Shown: positions 9,573-31,799 of the stretch, in pieces
Position numbering within the stretch: position 1 is the first letter of the stretch
Layout of the letters: every line of letters begins with the position of its first letter
DNA from: Bacteroidota bacterium
Lineage (GTDB): Bacteria > Bacteroidota > Bacteroidia > Chitinophagales > JADIYW01
Direction of reading: 5' to 3'
NCBI GenBank assembly: GCA_963169645.1
Contig: CAUJCO010000008.1
Span: 1 to 64,000, forward strand
Length of the DNA stretch: 64,000 nt
Notes under the pieces: model-generated
What the model was told of the DNA's origin: nothing
The model's input: only the letters and a program-made list of their open reading frames with translations
The model's database searches: none
Translations under genes and position numbers: made by a program

Positions 9573-9585
9573 ATATAAAAATTTA

Positions 9586-10029
9586 ATGAGTATGAATAAG
9601 CGCGTCGAATTTTTTAAAAGTCAAATTGGTCAAGAGAAATGGCAATATGAATATCCGTTGATGGATTGGTTGAAAACCAAAGTAGTGGCTGCGGAAGAAG
9701 GAAATGTGAAAATGCAATTTGTAGTAGAAAAATATATGCTAAATCCGATTGGGATAATGCATGGCGGAATTATGGCTACAATATTAGATGAAGTGATGGG
9801 AGCAGCCAGTTTTACATTGGGACGGCCACATGGGTTTGCTACCGTAAATATGAATATAGACTTTCTTAATCCGGCAAAAGCAGGTGCGGTAATTTATGGA
9901 GAAGGTACCGTTTTAAGAGCAGGGAAGACGATATTACATATAAAAGCGGAACTCTACGATGAAAACAATACGTTATTTGCTAAGGCTACTTCTAATATGA
10001 TCCGCACAGCGGTGGAACTTCCCATATAG
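9586..10029 (+). CDS. PaaI-family hotdog thioesterase
   Basis: NPIGIMHGGIMATILDEVMGAA...ATVNMNIDFLNPAKAG, hotdog thioesterase signature. Confidence 0.9.
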   Translation: MSMNKRVEFFKSQIGQEKWQYEYPLMDWLKTKVVAAEEGNVKMQFVVEKYMLNPIGIMHGGIMATILDEVMGAASFTLGRPHGFATVNMNIDFLNPAKAGAVIYGEGTVLRAGKTILHIKAELYDENNTLFAKATSNMIRTAVELPI

Positions 10030-13078: not shown

Positions 13079-13816
13079 TTAAACAAGTGCAAGAAAGTTA
13101 TAATTTATAGAAGTTACTTTGCAGCCTAATCTGTTGTATTTATTGATGAGTGCTATGTTATCTGCTCTAGTACCAAATGTAATTGCATTTATTTGATGTG
13201 TATAGTTGTAATGTATCATTGCATAAATTAACTTTTCATATACTTTTACATTTCTTTTATTGAAAATTATTCCGGTGTAGGGTCTGTATATTTGGTTGTT
13301 GCTATTGATAGTATAAGAAGAGAAACCAACTATTTCATTTTCTTGTTGATTTTTATATAATTGAATGCCACTATTGGGTTGATTAAATAAGTCGAGTATA
13401 TAACTTTGTAAGGCTTGCAATTCCATTTTTGATGAAATCTTATCTTTTAGAAATGGAATAGTAGCGTACCCAAAAGTAGCATTTTCAAAAACATCTTTTA
13501 TTAATTGAGCTATCATTTCTTTATCATCGAGTGTAGCTTCCTTTAATTCGTAATCTAAATCGAGCGGAAAATCTTCCACTTGTGAAGTGTCTTTTTCGTA
13601 ATTAAAAATGGCATTTATAAAAGTATATTTTTTAAATGCACGAAACTCATTTGATAAGTCAAAATTGGTAGATGGTAAAGCAAAACGTACTAAGTCAACT
13701 TGGTTGTCAGATAAAAATTGTTGTTGTTGCTCAAGCGTATTTTGAAGGAGAAAATCTGCGGTAGCTCTGTAAAAATTTAATTGATATACGTTGGATTCTA
13801 TTTCGGATTTAATCAT
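13079..13816 (-). CDS. GNAT-like N-acetyltransferase family protein
   Basis: GNAT-like architecture: DKEMIAQLIKDVFENA...ENEIVGFSSYTINSN...NIALINKYNRLGCK. Confidence 0.6.
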   Translation of the reverse strand: MIKSEIESNVYQLNFYRATADFLLQNTLEQQQQFLSDNQVDLVRFALPSTNFDLSNEFRAFKKYTFINAIFNYEKDTSQVEDFPLDLDYELKEATLDDKEMIAQLIKDVFENATFGYATIPFLKDKISSKMELQALQSYILDLFNQPNSGIQLYKNQQENEIVGFSSYTINSNNQIYRPYTGIIFNKRNVKVYEKLIYAMIHYNYTHQINAITFGTRADNIALINKYNRLGCKVTSINYNFLALV

Positions 13817-14157
13817 AATGTTTATAGTTTATCGAATTTGTATCACCCCTAATTACCTACCGGTTTTTAATGGAATGATTGCTAAGAAAAACTAAAATAA
13901 CTATTTTTTTTTCATGTAATATATTTCATATCGCACAAACCGTAAAGTTTTTCAAATTTCTTCATTACGTATGATTAAAAAGCGAAATTTCCTTTCTTCC
14001 ATATTGTTAAATGAAAAAAGAACCGAATGCTCTCTTTTTTTAGTTCAATTCTATATGAAATTTATTATTGATTTATTTTTGAATTGTATTTCTGGTCTGA
14101 TTATTGAAGAATTGTATGTTGTATTTATTTTCTTTACATTTGAATAAAAAAATCAGT

Positions 14158-15099
14158 ATGAAACATTTTCTATTCAGCTTGGTCGTATTTTTTATTTTCT
14201 TTTTTCAACCTTCAATACACGCATCCGATTTTTCGAGTCATAGCTACGAAGCAATGCTTGGAGATTCGTTGTTGAAAAAAATACCATCAGATACACTGTT
14301 TAGGTTTGTAAAAAAATATGGAAAAGATTCGTTGATTCATCAACTTGATGAAAGAATTAAGGCTGCTACTCATTTCATGGGAAATACAATTTTTGATATA
14401 GAAAGCGAATCTCATTTTAGAAAATTAAGTATGATAAACCAAAAATTTAATTTAGGTTTGGATTCTCAGATTGTTGCACGTGAACGATTAAATAGCGAAT
14501 ATCTCTTTAGCTTATATGGTAAATATTTTAAGGATATTTCAAGATTGGATGAAATAGATAAAGTTGTTAAAGAAACTTCAAATCTTGATTCTTTATTGGA
14601 AGCATCATCCTACAAATCAGTGGAACGAAATTTTATGATTACATTTTGTCATCAATTACCATGGCACAAAAAATTAATAGATAAAATGTATGACTTTTCA
14701 CAATTAACCATTCAACTAAGAAATGAATTTTATTGGCAGTTTTATGAATTGGCTTCTAAAAATTGTGTTGTAGATAGTGTAGCTCATTTTGAGTATCTAA
14801 GAAGTCAATTAAAAATAGATGCATTAAATATCGCTTCGTATAAAGATACGTTATTGTTAACAGACCATACCAATTATATAGAACCGATAAAATCACTTGC
14901 ATATGCATTATATTCGAATGATTTTACAATAAAAGATGGTGCTCCAATTGGATTGTTGTTATCTACACAAAGAGTTGATGGCGGATTCCCAAAAAATCTA
15001 CTGGAAGAGAACGGGCAAATAATATCTACTTTATTTGGATTGTGGGCTCTTTGTGAAATTAGAGATGAATGCATCGCAACAAAATTTCCCAAAAAATAA
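14158..15099 (+). CDS. Secreted hypothetical protein with a C-terminal prenyltransferase/squalene-cyclase-like helix repeat
   Basis: Signal peptide MKHFLFSLVVFFIFFFQPSIHA (start refined from 14104); C-term LLLSTQRVDGGFPKNLLEENGQIISTLFGLWALCEI resembles one alpha/alpha-toroid repeat. Confidence 0.6.
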   Translation: MKHFLFSLVVFFIFFFQPSIHASDFSSHSYEAMLGDSLLKKIPSDTLFRFVKKYGKDSLIHQLDERIKAATHFMGNTIFDIESESHFRKLSMINQKFNLGLDSQIVARERLNSEYLFSLYGKYFKDISRLDEIDKVVKETSNLDSLLEASSYKSVERNFMITFCHQLPWHKKLIDKMYDFSQLTIQLRNEFYWQFYELASKNCVVDSVAHFEYLRSQLKIDALNIASYKDTLLLTDHTNYIEPIKSLAYALYSNDFTIKDGAPIGLLLSTQRVDGGFPKNLLEENGQIISTLFGLWALCEIRDECIATKFPKK

Positions 15100-15113: not shown

Positions 15114-17081
15114 TTAGTAATTATTATTTGTGTTTTGTAGATATGGTTCAAATTGCTGATACATCGTTGTATCGCGTTTGGATTTATAGAAATTAAAATA
15201 AAGATTTGCATAAGCAGTGGATTGCATTCCTAATTGGAAGGCACGCAACATATATTTACCGGAAGCAGCTGTGTCGCCTAAATGTAAATAATTATATCCT
15301 TTAGTTTCATACGAGATACTTAATGAAGGTCGTCTTTGAATAATGCTATCACAAAATCGAAATGAGCCGTCTATTCTACTTAAATTGTGTAAGGTAGAAA
15401 TTAATTTGTAGTAACCTATATCAGTAATGGTATCAATGGTTAGCAGTTTATGATAAAAATAAGTCGCAGTATCGTACGATTTTCTTTTGTAAAATAAATC
15501 GCCCAACATATTTGATGTAAGTGCACTTGAGTCTGTAATAGAATTAATATATGCAAAAGTAGTATAGGCAGAATCTTTATTTCCTAACCCGAGGTAACTC
15601 AATGCCTTTGATTCTAAAATAAAAATATCGTCTTTATAAACAGCGTCCGCATTTAAAGCACAATTGAGCGCTTTGGAGTATAATGTTTGTGCTATTTCTG
15701 CTTGTTGTTCATTTCGTGCGGCATTTAAGTAGTGTGTAGCACCTATTCTATTGCCTTGAAATGAGTTAGTTAATTGAGGAATGTCTTTATCCATTAAACT
15801 AATAATATCTTTCCACGCTACATTTCTACTCCAAGTAAATGGTAAATAAATAAATGATATCAATAATGCAATTAAAATAGATAGTTGATGGATAGATAAT
15901 CCCTTTTGCTGTTTTTTATTTTTAGACTTATTCTTGGTATACTGTATATATTTATCAGTACACCAAATTATAAACCATGCGACAAATAAACAGAATCCTA
16001 ACGAAGCAATGAATGCATATCTGTCTGCAACAATACCGGCAACAAGTACATACATGTTACTACAATAGTATAGGGTTGCATAAAAAAATAAAATAGCATA
16101 AGCTCCCATTTTTTCTTCTTTCTTATATAAGATAAAAGCTCCTAAAAGAATACTGCAATGTAATAACAAGTATAAAATTTGTTGTATATTATTGATAGGC
16201 AACAATGGAATCATATCGTATCCAAAATAGAAATAATAACCTTGCGGAATTATCATAAATTTTAGATAAGTTGTATATGTACTTATAGCTTGACTTAGTT
16301 GATAAAAGAACGTGGTTTTTTCTACGATAGGATTTTCAGTATAAATGATGCTATTTCCTATAGAGTATTCATGGGGCAAATAAAAATTTAGTATTATACT
16401 TAAAATTAAAACAAGTATAATAATTGGAGTTAAGCCCTTTAAAATTTGCTTTATCGAAGCTAAATTGTAGATTATTAACGTCAAAGGAACAATTAAGAGC
16501 ACATTGTAATTATCTCTCTTGGTGCTAACGGCTAATAAAAACAATAGGATTCCAAAACAATAGCCTTTAAGTTTCTTTTTTGTTTGTTGACTTGTTGCAT
16601 AATACGTAAAATAATAAATACTCCAAATACTAAGTAACATACCTAAAATAGTATCTCTGCTTTTTAAATTACATACTGCATTTGCATGTATCGGATGTGC
16701 TAAAAAAAGAATCGAACAAATGAGTGCAATAGCAGTTGCATGTTTTTCCGGTAATTGTTTAATAAATATATAAATTGAAAAACATAAACTTACAAATAGG
16801 ATTAAATTTATCAAATGAGAAATAGTCGGATGAATTTCACCTAGAAACCATTGTTCAAGTGCAAAAGTAAACATGGCAACAGGCCTATAATCTACAAAGT
16901 CATAACGTTGCTTAAAAACTTTAAAACAACTCATAAAATTACTTCCTACTTCCGGAATCTGCTGAAAAATATAACTATCATCAAGTGCAAATCCGTTTTT
17001 TATAGAATTACCATAAAATAGAATAGACAACACACATAAAAGAAGGAAAACAGCCGTATTTGATATGTTTTTTTCAGTCAT
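15114..17081 (-). CDS. TMTC-like (DUF1736 + TPR) integral-membrane protein, putative polyprenol-P-mannose-dependent O-mannosyltransferase
   Basis: LDDSYIF, DYRPVAMFTFALEQWFLGEIHPTISHLINL, LAHPIHANAVCNLKSRDTILGM, VADRYAFIASLGFCLF; C-terminal TPRs. Confidence 0.8.
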   Translation of the reverse strand: MTEKNISNTAVFLLLCVLSILFYGNSIKNGFALDDSYIFQQIPEVGSNFMSCFKVFKQRYDFVDYRPVAMFTFALEQWFLGEIHPTISHLINLILFVSLCFSIYIFIKQLPEKHATAIALICSILFLAHPIHANAVCNLKSRDTILGMLLSIWSIYYFTYYATSQQTKKKLKGYCFGILLFLLAVSTKRDNYNVLLIVPLTLIIYNLASIKQILKGLTPIIILVLILSIILNFYLPHEYSIGNSIIYTENPIVEKTTFFYQLSQAISTYTTYLKFMIIPQGYYFYFGYDMIPLLPINNIQQILYLLLHCSILLGAFILYKKEEKMGAYAILFFYATLYYCSNMYVLVAGIVADRYAFIASLGFCLFVAWFIIWCTDKYIQYTKNKSKNKKQQKGLSIHQLSILIALLISFIYLPFTWSRNVAWKDIISLMDKDIPQLTNSFQGNRIGATHYLNAARNEQQAEIAQTLYSKALNCALNADAVYKDDIFILESKALSYLGLGNKDSAYTTFAYINSITDSSALTSNMLGDLFYKRKSYDTATYFYHKLLTIDTITDIGYYKLISTLHNLSRIDGSFRFCDSIIQRRPSLSISYETKGYNYLHLGDTAASGKYMLRAFQLGMQSTAYANLYFNFYKSKRDTTMYQQFEPYLQNTNNNY

Positions 17082-17141
17082 AGAAATGACAAGGTAAGAT
17101 TTTTCTTTTCAGTATCAAAAAAGTTTTAGTAGTTTTATATT

Positions 17142-18035
17142 ATGGCTTTTCAGCAGCTATTTAGTTTAATCTTGAGTCTATTATTTATAAGTAGTACGTT
17201 GCCATCATTTGCACAAGTTATGGATATAAGTGATTATAATACATATACAGATTTAGAAACTGCCTCCAAACAACCGAAGAAAGTTTATGCACTTTCATTA
17301 GAAAGTCAACAATTAAAATCAGTTCCTGATGCTATACGAAAATTTTCTAATCTTCGTTTTCTGTCTTTAGATAATAATCAAATTGAACAATTGCCGGGTT
17401 GGTTTGCAGAATTAAGTAATTTAAAGGAATTAAGATTGAATTATAATTGCTTCAAAGTATTTCCCTCTCAATTGTTTAGTTTGGAAGAACTTACTAATCT
17501 ACAAATGCAATATAATCAATTGGAGCGAATTCCAATGGGTATCATAACACTCAGTAAATTAGAAAAACTAGATGTTTCTGATAATAATATTTCTGTAATA
17601 GAAAATGGATTTTACGCTTTAAATAACTTAAAATTAGCTCGATTTAGAAATAATAAATTAGTTTCGATAGACCCTCAAATTCAGAACTTAAACCAATTAG
17701 AAGTTTTATGTTTCGCTCGTAATGATATCCATTCAATTCCTATTCAATTGTTCAATCTTACTAACCTTAATTATTTGTCGTTATGGGATAATGAAATTAC
17801 TCAGTTGCCCGATCAGGTATGTAAACTTAATAAATTAGAATGGATTGGATTGTTTTCGAATAAATTAACTGAATTTCCGCTCTGCGTATTAAGCCTGCCA
17901 TCCATAATAACTATTAATATGGGTGATAATTTGTATGATAGTACATTTATCTCTAATGTTAAATCTGCACTATATCAGTACCCCAAACTGAATATTTTTT
18001 TTGATAAAAAGCAAAATATGGATTTTTTCCATTAA
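17142..18035 (+). CDS. Secreted leucine-rich-repeat protein
   Basis: Signal peptide; about nine 23-aa LRRs such as LSNLKELRLNYNCFKVFPSQLF and LTNLNYLSLWDNEITQLPDQVC. Confidence 0.9.
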   Translation: MAFQQLFSLILSLLFISSTLPSFAQVMDISDYNTYTDLETASKQPKKVYALSLESQQLKSVPDAIRKFSNLRFLSLDNNQIEQLPGWFAELSNLKELRLNYNCFKVFPSQLFSLEELTNLQMQYNQLERIPMGIITLSKLEKLDVSDNNISVIENGFYALNNLKLARFRNNKLVSIDPQIQNLNQLEVLCFARNDIHSIPIQLFNLTNLNYLSLWDNEITQLPDQVCKLNKLEWIGLFSNKLTEFPLCVLSLPSIITINMGDNLYDSTFISNVKSALYQYPKLNIFFDKKQNMDFFH

Positions 18036-18115
18036 ATTTACCTTAGCATAAGATTATTAATACTATTTCTAAGGGTTTAGCAATAGCACGTTTTATTAAT
18101 TTGTAAATTATTTAT

Positions 18116-21100
18116 ATGTATAAATTTATACACTCTATTCTCATTTTTATTGGTTTAAGTTTAGTATCATTAGATGCTAATGCCCAAACAGTATCAATTA
18201 ACATAAATAACGTTTCAGTTGGTATGTATAGTGGCTCCGGCTCCGATTGTGGGGACTGTATAAGCTCACCCGATGTTTACATCGATGTCCGTTTTAAACA
18301 CAGCGGTACAGGTACATGGGGCGGTGGTGGCTCCTCTCGTCGTGATAACGTAGGTTGTGATAATTATGGCGGTGTCGGTGGGTATTCTACAAGTGGCATT
18401 GCTTGGTCTAGTGCTACAATTCAAATTCAAATTGATTCATGGGAAGATGATGGCGGTGTTTGCGGTGGTGCAGATGGAGATTGTGCCGGTGGGTATGGTG
18501 ATCCTAATAATGGAACAAACAATTTGACAATTGTGGCACAGCCTTCTTGTGGAACAAATAATGGAGTTTATTATTCTGAACGAATTAATTGTTCTTCGGA
18601 TGGTTCTACCAATGATTACAGAGCAAGATGGTATTATCAATGGTGGTGGGATGCAGGAAGTATAAGTGCTTCAACTACAGCAGGTGTAATTGGTGGCAGT
18701 GCAACTGTTTGTAGCGGTGCAAATATTACAGTTACTAATACTACAAATGGAAGTCTATATCCTCGTGGTACGGTAGTTTTTCAGCAAAGATTTAATGGTG
18801 GTGCTTGGACTGATGTTGGTTCTGCAACGACAAATACCGCAAGTTCTGCATCAACTGTAAGTCAAACATATAGCGCAACTTTATCAACTGCCGGAACGTA
18901 TGAATATAGAAGAGTAGTTAGATATTGTACAAATAGCAGCGGAGGAACAACACAATATGAAAGTAATATTGTCACTATTGTCGTGGTGCCGGATCCATCC
19001 TTTACAACCAGTCCGACTAGCTCTACCCCTGTTTGTACGGGTGGTACAATTCCTAATTTAACAGTTAGTTCGGCTAATGGAACTCCATCCAGAACACACC
19101 AATGGTATAGTAATACCTCCAATAGTTACACAGGAGCAACATCAATTTCAGGGGAAACAGGTACAAGTTATGCACCACCAACAGGGACTGCGGGTAATAT
19201 GTATTATTTTTGCACAGTTTCGTCTGCTGGTTCTGGGTGTACTTCTACAAATAGCTCTATAGCACAGGTACAAGTTGTTTCACAACCTTCGGCATCAGCA
19301 CCTGCATCACCAACAATATGTTTGGGTGGTTCTGCAAACATAACATCTAATCGCTCAGGAGGCACCGGTTTGTTTGATATAAATTGGCAATACTCTGCAG
19401 ATGGAAGTACAGGTTGGGCAAATGTCGTAAACGGTACACCTGCCGGCATCTCATATAGCAATGCCAACACAAGTACAATGACAGTTATTGGTGATGGTTC
19501 AGAGGCATTAGGTGCAAAATATTATCGAATGGTGGCAACTTCTGTTGACCCAAATATTAATTGTGCAGCAATATCTACTAATTCTGTTGTTACCACTATT
19601 GCAGATCCAACTTTATCAATTCCATCAAGTCCTACAGTTTGTGTAGGTGGCTCGGCAAATATTACATCAACTGTATCTGGTGGAACAGGCCCAATGTCTC
19701 GTCAATGGCAATATTCTTCAGACGGTATGTCGTGGGCTTCAGTAACGAATGGTACTCCGTCCGGAATTTCATACGCAGGTGGTACAGGAGGTACCTTAAC
19801 GGTAACCGGAGACGGTTCTGAAACTTCAGGTACATGGTACTATAGATTAAGATATTATCCTACGAGTGGTACTTCCGGCTGTGAAACATATTCTTCTGCA
19901 TCTACGTATACAGTTGTTCTGGAGCCAACTTTGAGTGCTCCTGCTGCCTTAACAACTGTATGTAGTGGTGGAAGTGCTTCATTAACGTCAACTGCTTCCG
20001 GTGGAACAGGTGCCTTTACTTATAGATGGCAATATTCTGCTGATGGTAGTACCGGTTGGGCAAATGTTGTAAATGGTACGCCAGCAGGTATTACCTATGT
20101 AGGTGGTACAGGAACAACGTTGACAGTTTCAGGTAATGGTACAGAAGCAAATATTTCAAAATATTATCGTTTAGTGCTTTCGTCTACTACTATATCAGTA
20201 GGTTGTGATGCTATTTCATCAACTGCCGAAATTAGTACTGTAGCAGATCCAATTATTAATTTACCAACACCGACATCACAAACCGTTTGCCAAAATGGTG
20301 CACCAACTGATTTGTCTACTTCAGCTAGTGGTGGTACTGCAAGTGCTTATACTTATAATTGGTATAGAAATGGAAGTAATTCAACTTCAGGTGGAACTTT
20401 AGTTGGTTCCGGAATAAATTATACTGCCGTTACAAGTGCAATCGGTACTTTATATTATTATTCGATAGTTACTCAACCCGAGTCAGGTTGTGCGGCAACG
20501 ACAGCATCTACTGCTTCTGTAACTATTGTGTCCTTACCAAGTTCCGGTACTTTATCGAAAACACCGAATGTAACAACAGTATGTGAAGGACAGACAGTAT
20601 CTGCAACTGCAACTGCCGGATCTGGTGGAACTGGTACCATTACGGATTATCTAGAATATCGAACAGATGCTGGTTCCGGATATAGTGCGTGGGCTTCTTA
20701 TACTGCTGGAACTCCAATTGCTACAACAGGCTTAGTGTCGGTAGAAATTCAAACATACCGAACAGCAACAGGATCTGGTTGTACCTCAAGTACGCCAACA
20801 GTCGCATCTTGGACAGTAGTTCCTCAACCTCAACCAGGTACACTTGCAAAAACACCAAATGTCACAGATGTGTGTGATGGGGATAATGTATCAGCCGTTT
20901 TCACTGCAGGAACAGGTGGAACTGGAGTTGTTACAGATATATTGCAATATAGATATAATGGAACAGGTGGATGGTCGAACTATACATCCGGTACTAATTT
21001 GTCAACTACAGGAAGAACAATGGTGGAAATTAGAACGTATAGAACATCTACAGGAACAGGATGTAATACAAGTTCGATTAATACAGTTACATGGAATGTT

Positions 21101-22474
21101 AGTACATTACCAAGTGCGACACCTATTATTGATTATATCAGTACATGCGATCAAACAGCAAGTATTTCCGCAACAGCTATTTCATCCGGTGCAAGTGTTT
21201 CTTGGTCTAGAGTATCCGGAAGTGGTACGCCTACATCTTCTACAGATAATCCTTTAGCAGTAAGTTCACTCACTCAAGGTGCTACGTCAGTTTATGAATT
21301 ATTTGTATCTAATGCAGGTTGTTCTAATATTAGTGCAGGAACGCTGAGTTTAGTATTGCCGGTAAATAACGCTTCAAATATAGCATCTTCAAATTCATGT
21401 GCTTATTGTGTTATAACAGATGGAAATACAAGAAATTATTTTAATAGTTCAGGTGAGATTATTGCTACAATTCATGATGATGGATTAACTACGCCAGCTC
21501 AACTCAGCTTTACAGAAGTATGTGTTGGTATCGATGGTAGTGTACAAACAGTTACGGATAACATAGGTGAACAACAACCTTATTTGCAACGAAAATGGAC
21601 TATTAGTCCTGCAAGTAATACAAATGCATTTATTACACTTTATTTTACAGCATCAGAATTAGCAGCACTTACATCGGCGGCAACATCAACTAGATATCAA
21701 TTCTCCGGTTTGGATTTATGGATGACTAAATTCTCCGGTGGAGGAAATGGTTCGTTTACACCACCATGTACTGGTGGTACAGGAGGATGCATGCCAACAA
21801 CCGGTGTAAATGTACCGGCTACATTTAGTAGCTATGGATCTAATTACAAAGTAGATATAGAAGTAAACTCATTCTCTACTTTCTATATTCATCCTGCTAT
21901 ATATGCATTTTCACCATTACCGGTTGAGTTAACCTCATTTACCGGTTGGAATCAAGGAAGTGTAAATAGATTACAATGGGTAACTGCATCTGAATTAAAT
22001 ACTAAAGTATTTGAAATTCAAAAAAGCACAGACGGACGCAATTGGATTACAATTGGTGAGAAAATAGCAGCCGGTAATTCTACACAGCCAATTACATATG
22101 ATTTTGTAGACAACCAACCTGTAATCGGTGATAATTATTATAGATTGAAAATTATAGATCTTGATAATTCATTTAGCTTTAGTAACTTCATAAATATTAT
22201 TTTGTCAGATGCCGTACAAAATAGCTTTACAGGTATTTATCCTAATCCGACAAGTAATATTTTGAATATCGAAATACAATCTATTAGCAATATAAATACA
22301 TCGTTAATCGTGTATGATGTATTAGGAAAATCTATTGTAACTCAACCTACCACATTGGTGAAAGGGTTGAATAAGCTTAAAATGGATTTTTCTACTTTAG
22401 CGAATGGTGCTTATATTCTACAGTTTGTTGATGCTGAAGGAAAAACGCATAGTACTAAATTTGTAAAAGATTAA
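18116..22474 (+). CDS. Giant T9SS type A-sorted surface protein with Ig-like repeats
   Basis: Signal peptide; repeats (CxGGSANITS...GGTG...WQYSADGSTGWANVVNGTPAGI); C-term LPVELTSFTGWNQGSVNRLQWVTASE...IYPNPTSNILNIEIQ...KFVKD. Confidence 0.92.
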   Translation: MYKFIHSILIFIGLSLVSLDANAQTVSININNVSVGMYSGSGSDCGDCISSPDVYIDVRFKHSGTGTWGGGGSSRRDNVGCDNYGGVGGYSTSGIAWSSATIQIQIDSWEDDGGVCGGADGDCAGGYGDPNNGTNNLTIVAQPSCGTNNGVYYSERINCSSDGSTNDYRARWYYQWWWDAGSISASTTAGVIGGSATVCSGANITVTNTTNGSLYPRGTVVFQQRFNGGAWTDVGSATTNTASSASTVSQTYSATLSTAGTYEYRRVVRYCTNSSGGTTQYESNIVTIVVVPDPSFTTSPTSSTPVCTGGTIPNLTVSSANGTPSRTHQWYSNTSNSYTGATSISGETGTSYAPPTGTAGNMYYFCTVSSAGSGCTSTNSSIAQVQVVSQPSASAPASPTICLGGSANITSNRSGGTGLFDINWQYSADGSTGWANVVNGTPAGISYSNANTSTMTVIGDGSEALGAKYYRMVATSVDPNINCAAISTNSVVTTIADPTLSIPSSPTVCVGGSANITSTVSGGTGPMSRQWQYSSDGMSWASVTNGTPSGISYAGGTGGTLTVTGDGSETSGTWYYRLRYYPTSGTSGCETYSSASTYTVVLEPTLSAPAALTTVCSGGSASLTSTASGGTGAFTYRWQYSADGSTGWANVVNGTPAGITYVGGTGTTLTVSGNGTEANISKYYRLVLSSTTISVGCDAISSTAEISTVADPIINLPTPTSQTVCQNGAPTDLSTSASGGTASAYTYNWYRNGSNSTSGGTLVGSGINYTAVTSAIGTLYYYSIVTQPESGCAATTASTASVTIVSLPSSGTLSKTPNVTTVCEGQTVSATATAGSGGTGTITDYLEYRTDAGSGYSAWASYTAGTPIATTGLVSVEIQTYRTATGSGCTSSTPTVASWTVVPQPQPGTLAKTPNVTDVCDGDNVSAVFTAGTGGTGVVTDILQYRYNGTGGWSNYTSGTNLSTTGRTMVEIRTYRTSTGTGCNTSSINTVTWNVSTLPSATPIIDYISTCDQTASISATAISSGASVSWSRVSGSGTPTSSTDNPLAVSSLTQGATSVYELFVSNAGCSNISAGTLSLVLPVNNASNIASSNSCAYCVITDGNTRNYFNSSGEIIATIHDDGLTTPAQLSFTEVCVGIDGSVQTVTDNIGEQQPYLQRKWTISPASNTNAFITLYFTASELAALTSAATSTRYQFSGLDLWMTKFSGGGNGSFTPPCTGGTGGCMPTTGVNVPATFSSYGSNYKVDIEVNSFSTFYIHPAIYAFSPLPVELTSFTGWNQGSVNRLQWVTASELNTKVFEIQKSTDGRNWITIGEKIAAGNSTQPITYDFVDNQPVIGDNYYRLKIIDLDNSFSFSNFINIILSDAVQNSFTGIYPNPTSNILNIEIQSISNINTSLIVYDVLGKSIVTQPTTLVKGLNKLKMDFSTLANGAYILQFVDAEGKTHSTKFVKD
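19280..21110 (+). repeat. Tandem Ig-like protein repeats of two subtypes (about 4 + 2 copies)
   Basis: e.g. GWANVVNGTPAGISY near 19412 and GWANVVNGTPAGITY near 20054; second subtype SGTLSKTPNVTTVCEGQ / PGTLAKTPNVTDVCDGD. Confidence 0.85.
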
Positions 22475-22494
22475 ATCTATTATTTTTTAAAGAA

Positions 22495-22532
22495 AGAGCT
22501 ATGATAACTTTTTTGTCATAGCTCTTTTTTTT
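22495..22532 (+). terminator. Rho-independent terminator of the first giant T9SS protein
   Basis: AGAGCTATGA...TCATAGCTCT stem followed by T8. Confidence 0.85.
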
Positions 22533-22566
22533 GTATTTTCAAATTCTATAGTTTGATAACATTAAG

Positions 22567-23721
22567 TTGAATATTCTACTTTTAAATTATGAATATCCGC
22601 CATTAGGCGGAGGTGCCGGAATTGTTACACAACATTTGGCATCTTGCTTTATTAATACACATCACGAAGTAACAGTTGTAACCACTTGGTTCTCCGGCGA
22701 ATCTGAATTCTTTTCAGAAAATAGGTTGACGATTATCCGATTAAAAGCAAAAAGAAAAGTTTCTTTTCAATCTAATCCGTATGAAATGTATGATTGGATG
22801 ATGAAAGCAAAAGAATACTGTTTGTCACATTTTTCTTCGACTGATTTTCAAATTTGCTTAGCCAATTTTTCATTGCCGGGTGGTTACGTAGCGAATGCAT
22901 TAAATCAAAAATGGAAACTGCCGTATGTGATTTTATCACACGGACATGATATTCCATGGTTTAGTCCGAAACAAATGTTTTTCTGGCATTTACTCTTATA
23001 TTTTCCAATAAAAAAACTACTGAAGCATGCTGCAAAAATTGTTGTATTAACCAATCAATTAAAACCGGCAGCATCAAAAATTATAGGAAGCCAACACGAA
23101 AATAAAATAGAAGTAATTCCGAATGGCATATTGCCACTGCAAACCAGAAAATCGTTTAACAAAGAAGATGCTATTTTAAAAAGTGTTTTTGTCGGCAGAT
23201 TAGTGCAACAAAAAGATCCATTAACAGTATTAAAAGCACATGCAGTCTTATTGCAGCAACAGATTCCGGTACATTTAACTTTTATTGGTGATGGTGAATT
23301 AAAATCAAATTTAGAAGCGTATATAAAGAAACATAAAATTACAAATGTAGAATTTGTAGGAAAGGTTAGCCAAAGTCAGGTGTTGGAAATTTTATCAAAT
23401 TCACATGTACTCATCGCTCCGAGCAAAGAGGAAGCAATGTCTATGGCAGTATTAGAAGCGATTTCGTCCGGATTATATGTATTTGCAACACCAATAAGTG
23501 GAAACAAAGAGCTGATTGATGATGGTGTAAATGGGAATTTCGTCGAATATGGAAATGTTAACCAAATTGCACATAAAATATCAGATTTCTATTTTCAGAA
23601 ATTTCTACAAAATTATTCGTACCCTACAGCTCAATTGGGGCATACTTTTCAAGAAAATACATGGGAACACATCGCACAAAGATATATCCAATTATTTACT
23701 GAAATTTTAAAAGATAATTAG
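22567..23721 (+). CDS. Glycosyltransferase family 4 (TTG start)
   Basis: NYEYPPLGGGAGIVTQHL...FVGRLVQQKDPLTVLKA...VLIAPSKEEAMSMAVLEAISSGL. Confidence 0.9.
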   Translation: MNILLLNYEYPPLGGGAGIVTQHLASCFINTHHEVTVVTTWFSGESEFFSENRLTIIRLKAKRKVSFQSNPYEMYDWMMKAKEYCLSHFSSTDFQICLANFSLPGGYVANALNQKWKLPYVILSHGHDIPWFSPKQMFFWHLLLYFPIKKLLKHAAKIVVLTNQLKPAASKIIGSQHENKIEVIPNGILPLQTRKSFNKEDAILKSVFVGRLVQQKDPLTVLKAHAVLLQQQIPVHLTFIGDGELKSNLEAYIKKHKITNVEFVGKVSQSQVLEILSNSHVLIAPSKEEAMSMAVLEAISSGLYVFATPISGNKELIDDGVNGNFVEYGNVNQIAHKISDFYFQKFLQNYSYPTAQLGHTFQENTWEHIAQRYIQLFTEILKDN

Positions 23722-23728
23722 TTCCGTT

Positions 23729-24493
23729 CTATTCATTTTTTGCTAAGATGAATTGGTATATCAAACAACAAAAAAAGATAGAAAATATAAACGCCGAAGT
23801 AAGAGTGATAATGATAAAATCAATGGCAAAATTTGCCTCTCGTTGTGTAAGTAGATATTTGGCTAATGTAAATAGACACATTGTTATTACAACGAAAAAC
23901 CAAAATTGAAATTGTTTTTTCGTGAGTACGTAGTTGGACATAATTTTATATTCCGGAGCAGCATATTTATAGAGCAAATAGAATCCCAAAATACTTAATA
24001 TTATTGGAACAAAATAGATTGCCATATAATAGAAAATCTGTGCGACAAATATAGAATTAGTTAGGGCGAATATCATTAAATAAACCGTGTGTGCATCTAA
24101 TACATGACAGATAAAATCGAGTATAAGATGTAAGTAAATGGCAAAAATTATGGAGTAAATAATTTTAATGAAATTATTTTTTAAATATGATGTAACGTCG
24201 ATGGTTAGAAATGATTTCCAATATACACGCAAGTTATTGGGTATCATCTGTAGGATAATACGTTGACAAATAAGATGAAATCCAACCAAGCTGAAAAATG
24301 CGAGTGGTAGCACAATAAAAAACACACACGCAAAATCATAATCAAAAATATGTTGTCTATTATTCGTGAATCGAAACAAGATGTCGTAATCGGGTGCTAT
24401 GCTTCCAAATAACAAACCGGAAAAACTAAATTTTTCAGTCCATCTTCTTTTAATGGGCACCACGTAACCAATATGTGCAAAAGTGAACGGCAA
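23729..24493 (-). CDS. DUF4184 family membrane protein
   Basis: MPFTFAHIGYVVPIKRRW...LLFGSIAPDYDILFRF, typical DUF4184 N-terminus; several TM segments. Confidence 0.82.
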   Translation of the reverse strand: MPFTFAHIGYVVPIKRRWTEKFSFSGLLFGSIAPDYDILFRFTNNRQHIFDYDFACVFFIVLPLAFFSLVGFHLICQRIILQMIPNNLRVYWKSFLTIDVTSYLKNNFIKIIYSIIFAIYLHLILDFICHVLDAHTVYLMIFALTNSIFVAQIFYYMAIYFVPIILSILGFYLLYKYAAPEYKIMSNYVLTKKQFQFWFFVVITMCLFTLAKYLLTQREANFAIDFIIITLTSAFIFSIFFCCLIYQFILAKNE

Positions 24494-24633
24494 CTTTAAT
24501 TAGATTGAATTCTGTAAAATAGTATTATTTTAGTATAACACAAATTAAACGAGTAATTTATTATTTTTTGTATTTACTGAAATGATAAGTTCATTTTTTA
24601 TGATTTGTAATACTAAACCATAGAGCTATTAAT

Positions 24634-26472
24634 ATGAAACCAAAAGTAAAATTTACACCTAAAAATAAATCATCTAATTCAATATCAATCGTAGATAAAC
24701 ATCCTATGTTTTTTACCTCTACGCTTTTGGGAATCTTAGTATTTGCTTTGTATGGTTGGACTTCTACTTTTGGTTGGGGCTTAGATGATATTACGTTTGT
24801 TTATTCAACGATAAAAAAGATAGACTCCAATTGGGACGGGCTCAGCACACTCTTTTTACAAAAGTATGGCCAATATGACTATCGCCCTGTTACGATGACA
24901 ACCTTCTGGTTGGAATATAAATATTTTGGAGATATTATTCCTGGAAAAAGCCACCTGATAAATGCAGGTTTATATGCAATTTTAGTGATACAGCTTTTTC
25001 GGTTTGTTGTTATGGCAGACTTCTTAAAAACTACAGAAAAGAATTATGCATTAGCAATTTTAGCCGTATTCTTTTTTATAATTCATCCCATACATGTTGG
25101 AGTGGTTGCAAATATAAAAAGTAGAGATAATTTACTGAGTATGTTATTGGGTGTTACAGCGCTTATTCAGTTTGTTCTTTTTTTTAAAGATAGAAAATGG
25201 TATCGTGTTTTTTTAGTAGTACTCTTTTTACTATTGGCCTTATTTTCGAAAGCTGATGCATATGCATTTTGGGCAATTATGCTCTTGTATTTTTTTGTGT
25301 ATAAGGCAGACTATAGAAATTTTTTTACGAAATCCAATCTGTTAATAGTACTGTTAAACCTACTATTAGTGGTATTTATTTTAATACTGGATTCAATGAT
25401 TCGGAACTCTGTAACCGCTTCTGATCCAATTCAAAGAATATACAATGATTCTCCTTTATTTGAGAATGATTCATTTGTCAATCATTTGTCATTTTCATTT
25501 ACCACCATGCTACTTTATCTAAAATTCTTATTAATACCACACGGTTATTATTTTTATTTTGGATATAATCAAATTCCATTAGTATCCTTATTTAGTTTGC
25601 AGAATATTATTTCGTTTCTGGTGTATGTGTCAATATTTATCTATAGTGTCAAACAATTTAAAACCAACAAAATCTATCTTTTTTCCTTTTTCTTTTTTTT
25701 GCTTTCTATTGCATACGCAGCAAATTTATTGGTGATTGTATCCGGAATAATGATGGATAGATATTGTTTTATCGCTTCGTTTGGTTTCTTTTTAGGTATA
25801 GCAGCCTTTCTAATGGAGAAGCTTCAAATATCCAATTGGAAAATTATGCTTGATAAAAGGCTCTGGATTGTATTTGCCGTATGGATAGTTGCTACCTATT
25901 ACAGAACTTCGGCTTGGAAAGATGTAGATACACTCTTTAATAGAGATATTGCATCGTTGCAACAGTCCGCACAAGCCAACGCCATGTTTGCAGGTTATCA
26001 AATTAATACAGCACTATTTAATAACTTATCCAATTCGGATAAAAGTAAGAAAATGGAATTAGCAGAGACGTATGTAGATAAAGCACTACAAATAAACAAT
26101 AAAAATAAATTTGCATTAGAGTCAAAGGGTATCTGTCGGACCTTTTTCAATGACGATATTCATGCTATTCCGTTTCTTTTAAAGGCAATCAACGTAGATT
26201 CAAACTATACAGGACCTTATAATAATTTAGGAATTGCATATCGAAATATTTCTAAGATAGATTCAGCATTGTACTTTTTTGGAATCGCAATGAATAAGGA
26301 AGATGCTTTCTCATATCCTGCAAATAATTACGTAAAAATGCTTTCAATTAAACAAGAATATACTTCTATTGATAGTGTTTTTAGTGTTCTGTTAAAACGG
26401 TTTCCTAATGATGAACGTCTAAAAATAAAAATAGATAAGTGGGATTCCTATAAAATTTGGGAGTACGATTGA
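24634..26472 (+). CDS. Second TMTC-like (DUF1736 + TPR) integral-membrane protein, paralog of 15114-17081
   Basis: LDDITFVY, DYRPVTMTTFWLEYKYFGDIIPGKSHLINA, IHPIHVGVVANIKSRDNLLSM, MMDRYCFIASFGFFLG; C-terminal TPRs. Confidence 0.8.
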   Translation: MKPKVKFTPKNKSSNSISIVDKHPMFFTSTLLGILVFALYGWTSTFGWGLDDITFVYSTIKKIDSNWDGLSTLFLQKYGQYDYRPVTMTTFWLEYKYFGDIIPGKSHLINAGLYAILVIQLFRFVVMADFLKTTEKNYALAILAVFFFIIHPIHVGVVANIKSRDNLLSMLLGVTALIQFVLFFKDRKWYRVFLVVLFLLLALFSKADAYAFWAIMLLYFFVYKADYRNFFTKSNLLIVLLNLLLVVFILILDSMIRNSVTASDPIQRIYNDSPLFENDSFVNHLSFSFTTMLLYLKFLLIPHGYYFYFGYNQIPLVSLFSLQNIISFLVYVSIFIYSVKQFKTNKIYLFSFFFFLLSIAYAANLLVIVSGIMMDRYCFIASFGFFLGIAAFLMEKLQISNWKIMLDKRLWIVFAVWIVATYYRTSAWKDVDTLFNRDIASLQQSAQANAMFAGYQINTALFNNLSNSDKSKKMELAETYVDKALQINNKNKFALESKGICRTFFNDDIHAIPFLLKAINVDSNYTGPYNNLGIAYRNISKIDSALYFFGIAMNKEDAFSYPANNYVKMLSIKQEYTSIDSVFSVLLKRFPNDERLKIKIDKWDSYKIWEYD

Positions 26473-26595
26473 TGGATAATTTTAAATAATATTACAAATC
26501 ATTTTCTTTTATATTTTATAAAAAAATCAAGATTTAACATTTTTATAGTTGCGGTTTTAATACATATATGTTAACTTGTATCAAAACTATAAATT

Positions 26596-29500
26596 ATGAA
26601 TATACTCTACTCCCAAGTAAAGAGAATATTATTTCTATTACTTACCTTACTTTTCACTTCTCACGCAGTTTTTTCGCAAGTAAACGTCAATATTTCTACC
26701 CAAATTAACGGCTTTAGGCATAATTGGGATTGTAATAATGATGGTATAAATAACAATGAGCCGGATATCCGCTATAAAGTATGGATGGGATGGAATGGTG
26801 GTAATTTTGCTCAAAGCACCAATGGACCGGGTTTATTTTGTGGAGCGGCAAATTACACCTACGGTATAGATAGCAAAGTATGTAGTGAATGGAATCCGGG
26901 GTTAATAACCGGACCCTCATTTTCAAACGTTGCAGCTACAACGCTTAATGTAGATATGCAAAGCTGGGAAGAAGATGAAAGTGGTACGCCTAATGTTTGG
27001 CCCTTTGACCAATGTCCACACGATAATTGTAATCCTAATAATAACACATGGTGTGCCAATAATGATGACACGCGTTGTGGACGATTACGTATTGGAGATA
27101 TCGGGTTTTCAACGTATGAACCTTGTTCTACAGTCGTATATACCGGACAATTTACAAGTGGTAGTTTCTTATCTATGACCGGCCGATGTGGTGACAATAA
27201 TGGCGGAGGATTTGGATTAGATAAATTAAATGTCAATTGGAATTTTGCATCAGCTCCCACTATTGTAACACAACCCAATGACGCATCTTATGGAGGAAGT
27301 ATCAGAGATGTTTGTACCGGTTTACCGGTTACATTAACCGTTGTATGTAATGCATTTGGTGCCGGAAATTGGACTTTAGGTCGTTGGGTAAAATGGCAAT
27401 CCTCAACGGATAACTCTAATTGGACAGATATATCAGGAACATTGAATGGTACTGCTTATTTAAACCAAACTACTTTTACCTATAATTTTACGCCAGGTAC
27501 ACCTGGTACAATGTATTATAGAGCAGTATTAAGTTCCTTATGTACTTCAGGTTTTGGCTCTCAAACCACCAATTCAGCATCCGTTCAATTTGTAATACAT
27601 GATGCATCAAGTGATCCATTTTGTACCGCACCAACTTGTAATGTAGCCTATGTAGATCCAACAATTGCTTCAGAAGTAGGTGCTACAGGTTCACCATCGA
27701 ATCCATATAAAAATATTTCAACGGCAGCTGCTACAGCACCAACTTATATACGTGTAGCCAAATGTGCAAGTGGATGTACAGACCCTGTTATGGTGTCAAT
27801 TCCCAATAATTGCGTGATAGAAGGAGGGTATGTACGTAGTGGTTCTTCCGGAGAATTATGGAGAAAATCATCTGCATCTGCAGATCAAACAATAATTACA
27901 TTTTCAGGAGATTATGCTCCGAATGGTACCAATCGGCAAATTGTTGCCTTTCATTCAGCTTCAAGATCTGGTTGGACTGTCAAAGATTTGACTATCTATA
28001 CTGCTAATACACCTTCCGGACAATATGCTACAACAGGCAGAGGTATGAGTAATTATGGCTTTTTAATATCAAGTAGTTCCGGATATAAAATTATTAGATG
28101 TAATATCTACGTAGGAAATGCAGGTGCTGGAAGAGATGGTACAGCAAATACCAACCCAGGTGGTGGAGTAAATGGAAGTGCAGGCAGCACCGGAAGTGCA
28201 GGCAATTCAGGGCAATGTAATACTTCAAATGGTGTAGCAAACGGAAATGGTGGAAGCGGTGGAAATGGTGGAAATGGTACAGCAAATACTTCAAATCCAG
28301 GCTCAAATGGAGCTCAAGGCACAGGTGGTGCAGGATATGGAACAGATAATGGTAATTGTATAACTTATTGTGCTAATACGAATGGTAATGCGGGTGGTAA
28401 AGGTGGAAATGGAGGAAATGGTGGTTCATGGACTGCCGGAAATAGACCGTCTGCACCTATTACTAATGCTGCCTATTATGCAGTAGCAGGAGCAGCAGAG
28501 AATGGTGGTCATGGCGGTGGCGGCGGTGGCGGTGGCGGCGGTAGTGGATCAAGAGGTGGGGAAGTGGCATGTATTGATTGCGACGGTTTTGCTGGTGCAA
28601 CCGGAAGAGCAGGTGGACAAGGAGGTGCCGGAGGTGCCGGAGGCTTTGGTGCCGGAGGTTCATTTGGTATTTGGCGATACAACTCGAATGGAGGTACACC
28701 ACTAATAGAAGAAGTAGATGTAACGGTAGGCAGTGCAGGTACGGGTGGAAGTGGACAAAATGGAAGGCCGGGAGTTACTGGAGGTGGTGCAACCAGTGGC
28801 CAATGTAACAATTGTGTAAGACAACGATGTTCTGGAAATGGAGGTGCCGCCGGAAATGGAGGTGCCGGCGGAAGAGGAAGAGATGGTGCGAACGGTATCT
28901 CAGCAGAATATGTAGTGGATGGTAGTAGTTCCAACTTAAATTTTACAATACAATACCCTTCTACTATTACCTTAGACAACTATAGTCAACGCAGTAATAT
29001 CAGTGGTAAAATGTGCAACAATTCAGAAATTGATATGTCAAAAACAAGTGGTACTTGGTCGTTATCATCCGGTTTGTCTTATGTAAATAATTTAACATCA
29101 TCTACTTCATCTTATAACAATAGTACTAATACTGTAAAAGTAACAACGAATAATTATAATACGTTCTTTGATATAAGCAACGGCACAAATCTAAATAGAT
29201 TTTTATACACTGCTAATGAAAATCGTAGCTTACCAACTGTTGTAAAAGGAAGTACCTACATCTGTAATGGAAGCACAATGGCACTTTCTACCAATAATAA
29301 TTACGATGTAGGAAACATTCAAGAATATGAATACGTTGTGTTTGCAGATGGAAGTAATGCGAACTCGCCATTTAGTGGCGGTACTTATAACTCAAGTGCA
29401 GCGAATTATACTACACCGTCGTTTACCACCAATGGAAGATATTGGGTACGTTATAGAGAACGTCATAATTGTTGTGGATGGTCACGTCCGGTATTCGATT

Positions 29501-30954
29501 ATTTTGATGTAATAGACATACCAAACACACCTGCATCAATTAATATAGTCGGCGGACCATATTGTTACAATGGTAGCGGACATTCATTTACTATAACAAT
29601 ACCTGGAAGTTCGTTTGCGTTTCCTACGTATGATACTTGGAAATTATATGACGTAGATCCAACATTTGGAACACCAACGCCAATACAAAGTAGTAACAGT
29701 CCAACGCCAAGTTTTGGTGTTACACCATCACAAACGACTACTTATTATGTTAGAGGTGAAAATGCATGTGGCGTTTCAACGGCATTAAGCGTTACAGCTT
29801 ATATTTCAGGCGATGCCAATCCATTTGGTGTAATTTCTACTGCTACAAGTTCAAAAACGTGTGTTGTAAATGATAATAATTGGCATTATTTCAGAAATAC
29901 ATCAAATGAGATTATTGCAGCTATCAATAGTAATGGACAAAACTTAGGAAATGTAACTATGACAGTAACTGTTGAAACAGTACCGCACGATGGAAGTTAT
30001 CTATCGCCAAAACACGGAAATGGTGGTATTGGAAACGCAAAAGTTTGTTTAGGTCAACCGGAATTATCGATGCGTAGATGGTACACAATTACACCTCAAT
30101 TCCAACCGACAGCAGGTAATCCAAGTACTATTCGTTTGTTCTTTACAGCAGCAGATTACTTAAACTATAGTACAGAAGTAGTTAGTTGGACTTCTTATAT
30201 TGCAAGTAATTATCCAAATTGCTATGGTTATACCAATAGCGCCATTGATTTAGCGGTTTCTAAAGATGAACTTGCCGATATTACTCCAAATAGTGTTGGT
30301 TTAACTGCAGGACCAAATAGCACGACTCAATATGAGTTATCCGTTCCATCTTTCTCTACTTTCCGTTTCCATACAAGTGGCGGATATGGAGAAGCGCTTC
30401 CGGTGGAATTGACTTCATTTACTGGTTGGAATGAAGGTGCAGTAAATAAATTGAGATGGGTTACAGCTTCTGAACAAAATTCAGATAAATATGATATTGA
30501 GAAAAGTACCGATAATGGTCAATGGTCAAAAATTGGAGAGTTGCCGGCAGCCGGAAATTCTACTTTACCAATAACATACGACTTTACCGATAATAACCCA
30601 ATAGTTGGTGATAATTATTATAGATTGAAAATGTGGGATAAAGATGCAACGTTTGAATATAGTAACGTAATTAATATTCCATTAGCAGAAGCAATTACAA
30701 ATGGTTTCACTAATATTTATCCAAATCCAACGAGTGGCGATTTAAATGTGGAGTTGCAATCAACACAAGCATACGATACTCGAATTATGGTATATGATGT
30801 ATTGGGTAAGGAAATTTACAATCAAGCATCTACCTTAATAAAAGGCATCAATAGATTTACATTTGATTTTGCACACTTACCTAAAGGAGTTTATTTAATT
30901 CAATTCTCCGATAAAGAAGGAAAAACTCATATTGCGAAATTTGTAAAAGATTAA
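26596..30954 (+). CDS. Giant T9SS type A-sorted surface protein with beta-helix-like segment and Gly-rich domain
   Basis: Signal peptide; SNPYKNISTAAATAPTYIRVA (DUF1565-like); Gly-rich 28.1-28.9 kb; C-term LPVELTSFTGWNEGAVNKLRWVTASE...IYPNPTSGDLNVELQ...KFVKD. Confidence 0.9.
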   Translation: MNILYSQVKRILFLLLTLLFTSHAVFSQVNVNISTQINGFRHNWDCNNDGINNNEPDIRYKVWMGWNGGNFAQSTNGPGLFCGAANYTYGIDSKVCSEWNPGLITGPSFSNVAATTLNVDMQSWEEDESGTPNVWPFDQCPHDNCNPNNNTWCANNDDTRCGRLRIGDIGFSTYEPCSTVVYTGQFTSGSFLSMTGRCGDNNGGGFGLDKLNVNWNFASAPTIVTQPNDASYGGSIRDVCTGLPVTLTVVCNAFGAGNWTLGRWVKWQSSTDNSNWTDISGTLNGTAYLNQTTFTYNFTPGTPGTMYYRAVLSSLCTSGFGSQTTNSASVQFVIHDASSDPFCTAPTCNVAYVDPTIASEVGATGSPSNPYKNISTAAATAPTYIRVAKCASGCTDPVMVSIPNNCVIEGGYVRSGSSGELWRKSSASADQTIITFSGDYAPNGTNRQIVAFHSASRSGWTVKDLTIYTANTPSGQYATTGRGMSNYGFLISSSSGYKIIRCNIYVGNAGAGRDGTANTNPGGGVNGSAGSTGSAGNSGQCNTSNGVANGNGGSGGNGGNGTANTSNPGSNGAQGTGGAGYGTDNGNCITYCANTNGNAGGKGGNGGNGGSWTAGNRPSAPITNAAYYAVAGAAENGGHGGGGGGGGGGSGSRGGEVACIDCDGFAGATGRAGGQGGAGGAGGFGAGGSFGIWRYNSNGGTPLIEEVDVTVGSAGTGGSGQNGRPGVTGGGATSGQCNNCVRQRCSGNGGAAGNGGAGGRGRDGANGISAEYVVDGSSSNLNFTIQYPSTITLDNYSQRSNISGKMCNNSEIDMSKTSGTWSLSSGLSYVNNLTSSTSSYNNSTNTVKVTTNNYNTFFDISNGTNLNRFLYTANENRSLPTVVKGSTYICNGSTMALSTNNNYDVGNIQEYEYVVFADGSNANSPFSGGTYNSSAANYTTPSFTTNGRYWVRYRERHNCCGWSRPVFDYFDVIDIPNTPASINIVGGPYCYNGSGHSFTITIPGSSFAFPTYDTWKLYDVDPTFGTPTPIQSSNSPTPSFGVTPSQTTTYYVRGENACGVSTALSVTAYISGDANPFGVISTATSSKTCVVNDNNWHYFRNTSNEIIAAINSNGQNLGNVTMTVTVETVPHDGSYLSPKHGNGGIGNAKVCLGQPELSMRRWYTITPQFQPTAGNPSTIRLFFTAADYLNYSTEVVSWTSYIASNYPNCYGYTNSAIDLAVSKDELADITPNSVGLTAGPNSTTQYELSVPSFSTFRFHTSGGYGEALPVELTSFTGWNEGAVNKLRWVTASEQNSDKYDIEKSTDNGQWSKIGELPAAGNSTLPITYDFTDNNPIVGDNYYRLKMWDKDATFEYSNVINIPLAEAITNGFTNIYPNPTSGDLNVELQSTQAYDTRIMVYDVLGKEIYNQASTLIKGINRFTFDFAHLPKGVYLIQFSDKEGKTHIAKFVKD
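28110..28900 (+). repeat. Gly/Ala/Asn-rich low-complexity coding repeats (GGxGGAGG, GGNGGNG, poly-Gly)
   Basis: Runs of GGN codons; local GC elevation; includes GGGGGGGGGSGSRGG. Confidence 0.9.
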
Positions 30955-30970
30955 AGATTAATTTTAAAAA

Positions 30971-31006
30971 AAAAAGAAGAGCCACTAAAAGGTGGCTCTT
31001 CTTTTT
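30971..31006. terminator. Bidirectional terminator between convergent genes
   Basis: AAAAAGAAGAGCCAC-loop-GTGGCTCTTCTTTTT. Confidence 0.88.
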
Positions 31007-31051
31007 GTTATCAATTAGACAAAGTGTAAAATATAGTGGTTTTAAACAAAC

Positions 31052-31792
31052 CTATTTTTTCTTATAAAAAAACTTATTGCTAAGGCTTTGCCATTTCATT
31101 TGGATAACGCCAATCATTGCTTCTTTTATTATTCCACCATGCATTTTGGAAACGCCAACTTCGCGATCTTTAAATAAAATGGGAATTTCGATAATAGATA
31201 AACCACTTAACCAAACCGCAAATTTCATCTCTATTTGAAATGCATATCCAATGAATTTTATTTTATCAAAATCTATTTGTTGTAGTATAGCATTTTTATA
31301 ACAAACAAATCCTGCTGTGGTATCTTTTATTTTCATTCCTGTGATAATGCGTACATATATGGAAGCAAACCATGAAAGAAATAATCTGTCAAACGGCCAA
31401 TTAACAACACCACCACCTTTTACGTAACGAGAACCAATAGATAAGACCGCATTTTTTTGTTCGCACGCGGCTAATAATTCGATTAGTTTTTCCGGTGGGT
31501 GCGAAAAATCTGCATCCATCTCAAAAATATATTGATAGCCTTGCTCTAATGCCCATTTAAAACCGGTGATGTAGGCAGTACCTAATCCTAGTTTTCCACT
31601 TCGTTTTATTAAATGTACTTTGTTAGGAAATTGGATAGCTAAATTTTGAACTACATCCGCAGTGCCGTCCGGAGAACCGTCATCAATAACTAAAATCTCA
31701 AATCTATTTGAAAGTTGCAACGTGTAAGGAATTATTTGAGCAATATTTTCCTTTTCGTTATAAGTTGGTATAATGATTATGCAATCTTTCAT
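31052..31792 (-). CDS. Polyprenol monophosphomannose synthase-like GT2
   Basis: IIIPTYNEKENI, LVIDDGSPDGTADVV, FEMDADFSHPPEKL, SRYVKGGGVVNWPFDRLFLSWFA; ATG start refined to 31792. Confidence 0.88.
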   Translation of the reverse strand: MKDCIIIIPTYNEKENIAQIIPYTLQLSNRFEILVIDDGSPDGTADVVQNLAIQFPNKVHLIKRSGKLGLGTAYITGFKWALEQGYQYIFEMDADFSHPPEKLIELLAACEQKNAVLSIGSRYVKGGGVVNWPFDRLFLSWFASIYVRIITGMKIKDTTAGFVCYKNAILQQIDFDKIKFIGYAFQIEMKFAVWLSGLSIIEIPILFKDREVGVSKMHGGIIKEAMIGVIQMKWQSLSNKFFYKKK

Positions 31793-31799
31793 CAATATA

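Follow-up and report, generated by a model that had tools for sequence, protein, structure and literature searches.

Do membrane glycosyltransferases encoded beside giant surface proteins modify those very proteins? The question arises in a 64,000-nucleotide stretch of a Bacteroidota genome (assembly GCA_963169645.1, contig CAUJCO010000008.1, positions 1 to 64,000; hereafter the window), where two TMTC-like membrane proteins, w1 (15114-17081, minus strand, 655 aa) and w2 (24634-26472, plus strand, 612 aa), lie next to two giant proteins, G1 (18116-22474, plus strand, 28% Ser+Thr), the partner of w1, and G2 (26596-30954, plus strand). Both giants are 1452 aa long and carry the type A sorting domain of the type IX secretion system (T9SS), and the w2 gene ends 123 bp before the G2 gene on the same strand. 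An earlier note, made from the sequence alone, had proposed that the TMTC-like proteins transfer mannose, or another hexose, onto these neighbors before export. The open reading frames, including those of a GT4 and a GT2 glycosyltransferase, and the 123-bp gap were found as it described them, and Pfam agrees on the sorting, GT2 and GT4 domains. Our best reading is that w1 and w2 are periplasmic O-glycosyltransferases, each dedicated to a substrate.

Paired enzymes and their active site

At the level of gene order, GT-C enzymes are paired with T9SS giants within one bacterial family. We defined a paired giant as a sorting-domain protein with a length of 900 aa or more, encoded no further than 2.5 kb from a TMTC-like gene. 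In the window's family (f1), one family of uncultured Chitinophagales known from metagenome assemblies, 14 of 25 TMTC-like loci are paired, or 16 of 25 on a looser count that adds one giant running off its contig (L049) and one lying 3.1 kb away (L037). None of the 11 control loci, built on TMEM260-like genes, is paired (p 0.003 for 13/25, lower for 14), and none of the 119 genes in control loci encodes a T9SS giant, some control contigs being short. In the window's own genome three of the four TMTC-like genes adjoin T9SS giants (p ~5e-5 or less by a rough gene-count estimate). Two of the four were absent from the earlier note; one lies between giants of ~2750 and ~2980 aa, and the other has no T9SS gene nearby.

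Single genomes show this pairing at several separate loci, and it recurs in separate subclades of the enzyme. An independent genome, L161, which came from a later scan of 85,462 species genomes, repeats the order DUF4184 gene, TMTC-like gene, small lipocalin-like gene, giant. Other giants of these genomes (L137-L140) resemble the paired ones weakly or not detectably. Among L033, L052 and L039 the adjoining giant retains 82-90% of its self score while the TMTC-like gene at that position falls to 31% identity with L039, which suggests that the enzyme has changed quickly or been exchanged next to a conserved giant.

The two enzymes are themselves diverged, with 32% identity over 506 columns. Neither reaches the curated cut-off of PF08409, the family that the earlier note proposed to search together with CAZy GT105: w2 scores 13.5 of 27 bits, w1 gives no match, and a search of the whole genome with PF08409 found nothing, the controls matching nowhere either. 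Their relation to TMTCs comes from the wider family and from shared motifs. Of the 61 TMTC-like relatives in our alignment (A1), 29 have a PF08409 match with E <= 0.1 (4e-8 at best) and 17 a match to PF13231 (PMT_2), linking the family to both TMTC and PMT-type transferases. An AlphaFold model of w2 (mean predicted local distance difference test score, pLDDT, 91.9; predicted template-modeling score 0.91) retrieved tetratricopeptide repeat (TPR) superhelices and the GT-C oligosaccharyltransferases AglB and PglB in Foldseek (E 7e-4; template-modeling (TM) scores ~0.36-0.39, whole chain compared). There is thus good support, resting partly on sequence, for reading w1 and w2 as membrane enzymes of the GT-C type that end in a TPR tail, much as the earlier note had described them. 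In w2 the membrane part spans approximately aa 24-430 and the tail aa 446-611. Topology was taken from the model helices and the positive N-terminus, without a topology predictor; with ~11 membrane helices behind a Lys-rich N-terminus, the tail should face the periplasm. TMTC-like genes number 0 to 8 per genome, unlike the core GT2 and TMEM260-like genes described below.

A tree of the 61 sequences separates a canonical, order-wide clade I (31 rows), a clade II (12 rows, including the long-branch L102) and a clade III of 18 rows, all from the window's own family and including w1 and w2; the branch dividing clade III from the rest has an SH-aLRT (Shimodaira-Hasegawa-like approximate likelihood ratio test) support of 100. 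A non-exhaustive scan of 85,462 species genomes with two peptide patterns found clade III-like genes solely in assemblies of Chitinophagales or of unnamed Bacteroidota, the window's family accounting for nearly all.

Seven TMTC motifs (M1 to M7) have been defined, with metal and mannose roles derived from modeling (PMC7801869). In w2 numbering, Asp52, Arg84 of YRP, Lys206, Arg376, Arg424 and Trp428 are invariant or nearly so across the 61 sequences. The Asp-Asp pair of M1 in the first outer loop, the candidate catalytic acids (Asp51-Asp52 of w2, 24784-24789; aa 34-35 of w1), is present in 18/18 clade III members, and its second Asp in 61/61. M2, canonically SHKSYRP, is reduced to YRP, preceded in all 18 by an Asp where most canonical members have Arg (DYRP, aa 82-85 of w2, 24877-24888). 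At the RxD of M3 in the second outer loop 18/18 have R-D, with Arg kept and Asp directly after it; K-R-D, Lys206 and Arg376 are likewise kept throughout the clade.

The Glu after the M4 Lys and the Asp of M5 occur in 31/31 clade I sequences; in all 18 clade III members the Lys remains, the Glu is gone and an Asp appears one residue on (K206-A-D208 of w2, 25249-25257), and the M5 Asp is replaced by Tyr or Phe (Tyr308 of w2, 25555-25557). Clade III therefore lacks the M4 Lys-Glu and M5 Asp-Trp combination proposed as the phosphate and metal site. In M7 (ERxxY) the Arg is retained in 18/18, Glu has become Asp in 18/18 to give Asp-Arg, and Tyr is mostly Phe. Conservation of the luminal acidic residues, on which the earlier note had set store, thus extends to the Asp-Asp pair and fails at the M4 Glu and M5 Asp. 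These substitutions speak for an altered donor site and for no specific donor, because the site roles themselves come from modeling. Mannose in particular is unsupported as the sugar, since clade III alters the sites assigned to mannose, metal and phosphate binding (PMC7801869).

Candidate substrates and likely donor synthase

Both giants have the hallmarks of T9SS type A cargo: Pfam Por_Secre_tail matches at E 2e-13 and 3e-13, and PF18962 and TIGR04183 score above cut-off in each. The earlier note took them for paralogues, and full-length comparison does not bear this out. They have in common the sorting-domain end (22235-22462 in G1, 30715-30942 in G2) and a diverged N-terminal domain (18185-18700 and 26674-27249); their bodies differ, that of G2 being partly Gly-rich. 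The G1 body contains six detected repeats of ~95-108 aa each (18695-21169), all aligning with repeats of the giants at L044, L045 and L053. As modeled (pLDDT 88), these repeats are immunoglobulin (Ig)-like domains, with solved immunoglobulin domains matched at TM scores of 0.6-0.7. In humans, TMTC1-4 and TMEM260 add single mannoses to Ig-like domains, a task that their TPRs are thought to serve (PMC11292533).

The N-terminal domain, which is unannotated, sits right behind the signal peptide in most paired giants of known start and ends in W-E-x-D followed by an x-W-x-W-like pattern. A profile of 14 rows, aligned by eye from TMTC-adjacent giants and thus partly selected by adjacency, retrieved 18 clear members across the f1 genomes, of which 15 adjoin a TMTC-like gene and the rest lie on a short contig or are unpaired; a profile from three N-terminal domains alone retrieved three members only. 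Weaker members occur in other families, with no TMTC-like neighbor. Because the profile was built from paired giants, the association of this domain with TMTC-like genes is supportive rather than independent evidence.

Small secreted proteins accompany these giants. A lipocalin-like protein of ~174 aa is encoded directly 5' of N-terminal-domain giants, other families included (L049:3893-4414; L161:7291-7815; L152:7977-8489; L153:10398-10925). A second family (YYQxI...PCxC), with no Pfam match, precedes or flanks the largest giants (L034:11620-12156; L039:10958-11476; L052:11880-12470; L146:4262-4819). The giant at L041:11756-17635 seemingly carries two tandem copies of the N-terminal domain.

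By motif content, neither giant qualifies as a general Bacteroidota O-glycoprotein. Sites of the form D-S/T-[AILVMT] number 0 in G1 and 0 in G2, against 6.5 and 4.3 expected by shuffling; of the control motifs, N-, S- and G-based ones are not depleted in G1, and T-based ones are depleted in G2. The genome's own exported and membrane proteins carry the motif ~1.9- and 2.7-fold over expectation, by a crude classifier. Other T9SS giants are likewise depleted, as has been reported for gingipains (PMC8729774). Judged by sequence, depletion is therefore a cargo-wide trait and no proof of TMTC targeting. The general system resembles the one proposed here in glycosylating exported proteins on oxygen in the periplasm; given the depletion, modification of the giants would represent a separate specificity.

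A likely source of the donor is the DPM1-like GT2 (31052-31795, minus strand), a polyprenol-phosphate-sugar synthase-like protein whose best solved relative is dolichol monophosphate mannose synthase 5mlz (E 2.6e-34). The earlier note's identification of a polyprenol-phosphate-mannose synthase-like enzyme agrees with this match; the specific tie to the TMTC-like genes does not hold. The gene is single-copy in 60/61 genomes and hence a core gene rather than a member of the cassette, and it is likely to be the donor synthase, shared with the rest of the cell. Specific co-occurrence of DPM-like and TMTC-like genes was rejected on the same ground, at least five TMTC-less genomes carrying both the GT2 and a TMEM260-like gene.

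The TMEM260-like GT-C gene of the window (36197-39289, plus strand; PF11028, E 2e-67), missing from the earlier note's list, lies outside the cassette. It belongs to a separate core family from the TMTC-like genes, present in 57/61 genomes and nearly always in one copy. Its human homologue, TMEM260 (GT117), is a GT-C enzyme with TPRs that acts on Ig-like IPT domains. The general Bacteroidota O-glycan starts with mannose in most species, and the oligosaccharyltransferase of that pathway is reported to be undiscovered (PMC12871550). Because both genes are core, the TMEM260-like protein and the DPM-like GT2 are candidates for the initiating O-mannosyltransferase and donor synthase of general Bacteroidota O-glycosylation.

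Proposed mechanism and its alternatives

How might the paired enzymes work? Facing the periplasm, w1 and w2 would draw a sugar from a polyprenol carrier, probably loaded by the DPM1-like GT2 common to the whole cell, and place it on Ser/Thr of the adjoining giant before its export across the outer membrane. The TPR tail would recruit the giant, perhaps through its N-terminal domain or Ig-like repeats. Transfer to protein, the identity of that protein, the sugar and the order of events are what we infer. On this evidence we put even odds on w1 and w2 being GT-C glycosyltransferases that modify the adjoining giants. A narrower version strikes us as possible, if doubtful: a family-specific system in which each diverged GT-C/TPR enzyme serves one giant, recognized by its N-terminal or Ig-like domains, and has a rearranged site for a donor other than mannose.

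Known enzymes offer partial precedents. Like human TMTC1-4 (GT105), which O-mannosylate cadherin domains, w1 and w2 combine a GT-C-type membrane part, the first-loop Asp-Asp, YRP, the Lys, the Arg of ERxxY and a TPR tail, and Ig-like domains are the proposed target here too. They depart from TMTC1-4 in their sub-cut-off PF08409 scores, in the loss of the M4 Glu and M5 Asp, in the M7 Glu-to-Asp change, in an M2 without SHKS, and in the pairing of the enzyme gene with a candidate substrate gene. In serine-rich-repeat protein Gtf/Sec cassettes, HMW1C and TibC, a transferase gene adjoins that of its large secreted substrate, and these dedicated adhesin glycosyltransferases are cytoplasmic and use nucleotide sugars. 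The gene adjacency is the same; here a polyprenol-linked sugar would be used in the periplasm.

Several observations weigh against modification of the giants by their neighbors. Outside the family, across the order, giants within 2.5 kb are not enriched (3/40 TMTC-like against 2/20 TMEM260-like loci), so the co-occurrence that the earlier note proposed to test holds in f1 and not elsewhere in the order. Clade III genes without an adjoining giant exist (L040, L043, L051, L059), as do N-terminal-domain giants without a TMTC-like neighbor (L146, L148 and, at order level, L149-L153). Subclades II and III lack two residues proposed as metal ligands. A test for co-divergence of enzyme and giant (Mantel rho 0.12, p 0.10; -0.09 without near-identical loci) gave no evidence that their similarities track each other beyond close orthologues. 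Loci of related genomes are also not independent, and for this reason we give the p value less weight than the repetition of pairing at separate loci and in separate clades.

Such gaps would be expected if pairing were mere shared neighborhood, for instance through co-inherited islands of surface genes with no functional link, and unpaired members among both enzymes and giants, with the lack of enrichment outside the family, fit that account. The recurrence at several loci per genome and in separate subclades, the dissimilarity of the L137-L140 giants and the gene order repeated in L161 argue otherwise, and we consider it the least probable of the alternatives. A functional link need not be enzymatic: clade III proteins might be dead as transferases and, with their TPRs, might serve the giants in the periplasm as chaperones or docking factors. 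That every clade III member has lost the M4 Glu and M5 Asp would suit such a role, as would rapid divergence (L033 and L039 enzymes at 31% identity beside giants at 84% of self score). The catalytic residues kept in 18/18 and the newly acquired acidic residues, invariant in the clade, argue instead for a retained, altered active site, and make a dead enzyme quite improbable.

The enzymes could also be active on something else, decorating a lipid or lipopolysaccharide (LPS) glycan, such as the LPS that anchors T9SS cargo, with adjacency reflecting a shared surface role. ArnT (PDB 5ezm/5f15), the closest solved relative of TMTCs (PMC7801869), is a GT-C enzyme with a polyprenol-phosphate sugar donor and acts on lipid A; T9SS cargo becomes attached to sugars linked to LPS (PMC11969387); and the w1 cassette has a conserved GT4 gene. 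ArnT has no TPR tail, a feature that in w1 and w2 suggests a protein partner. Several diverged enzymes per genome, each with its own giant, fit substrate dedication better than one LPS step, and 39 of the 43 T9SS cargo genes in the window's genome fall outside the TMTC-paired set. We regard a lipid or LPS acceptor as the likeliest of these alternatives and still as unlikely. Were dedicated modification of the giants correct, bacteria would have GT-C enzymes that, guided by TPRs, glycosylate Ig-like domains in the manner of human TMTC1-4 and TMEM260, along an O-glycosylation route apart from the general Bacteroidota system; and because the gene of each enzyme would adjoin that of its substrate, their specificity would be open to direct study.

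Other genes of the neighborhood

Several neighbors recur with the enzymes. The GT4 glycosyltransferase (22567-23721, plus strand), assigned by Pfam, has counterparts adjoining clade III genes at L035, L036 and L037, and the DUF4184 membrane protein (23729-24493, minus strand) also adjoins w2-type genes at L049 and L161. A leucine-rich-repeat protein (17142-18035, plus strand) occupies the w1-G1 interval and the same position at L035. A 331-aa protein of unknown family (14104-15099, plus strand; region 13079-13816 to 15099), without a Pfam match, is conserved beside w1-type genes at L035, L036 and L053.

Long terminator-like hairpins lie 3' of both giants (22489-22531 and 30971-31006), which suggests that each giant ends its own transcript; promoter and terminator scans were overall at chance level. 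In relatives, w1-type TMTC-like genes adjoin HTTM, vitamin-K-carboxylase-like and LMF1-like membrane proteins (L035:8034-9524; L036:5070-6540; L037:6547-8007 and 8017-9612).

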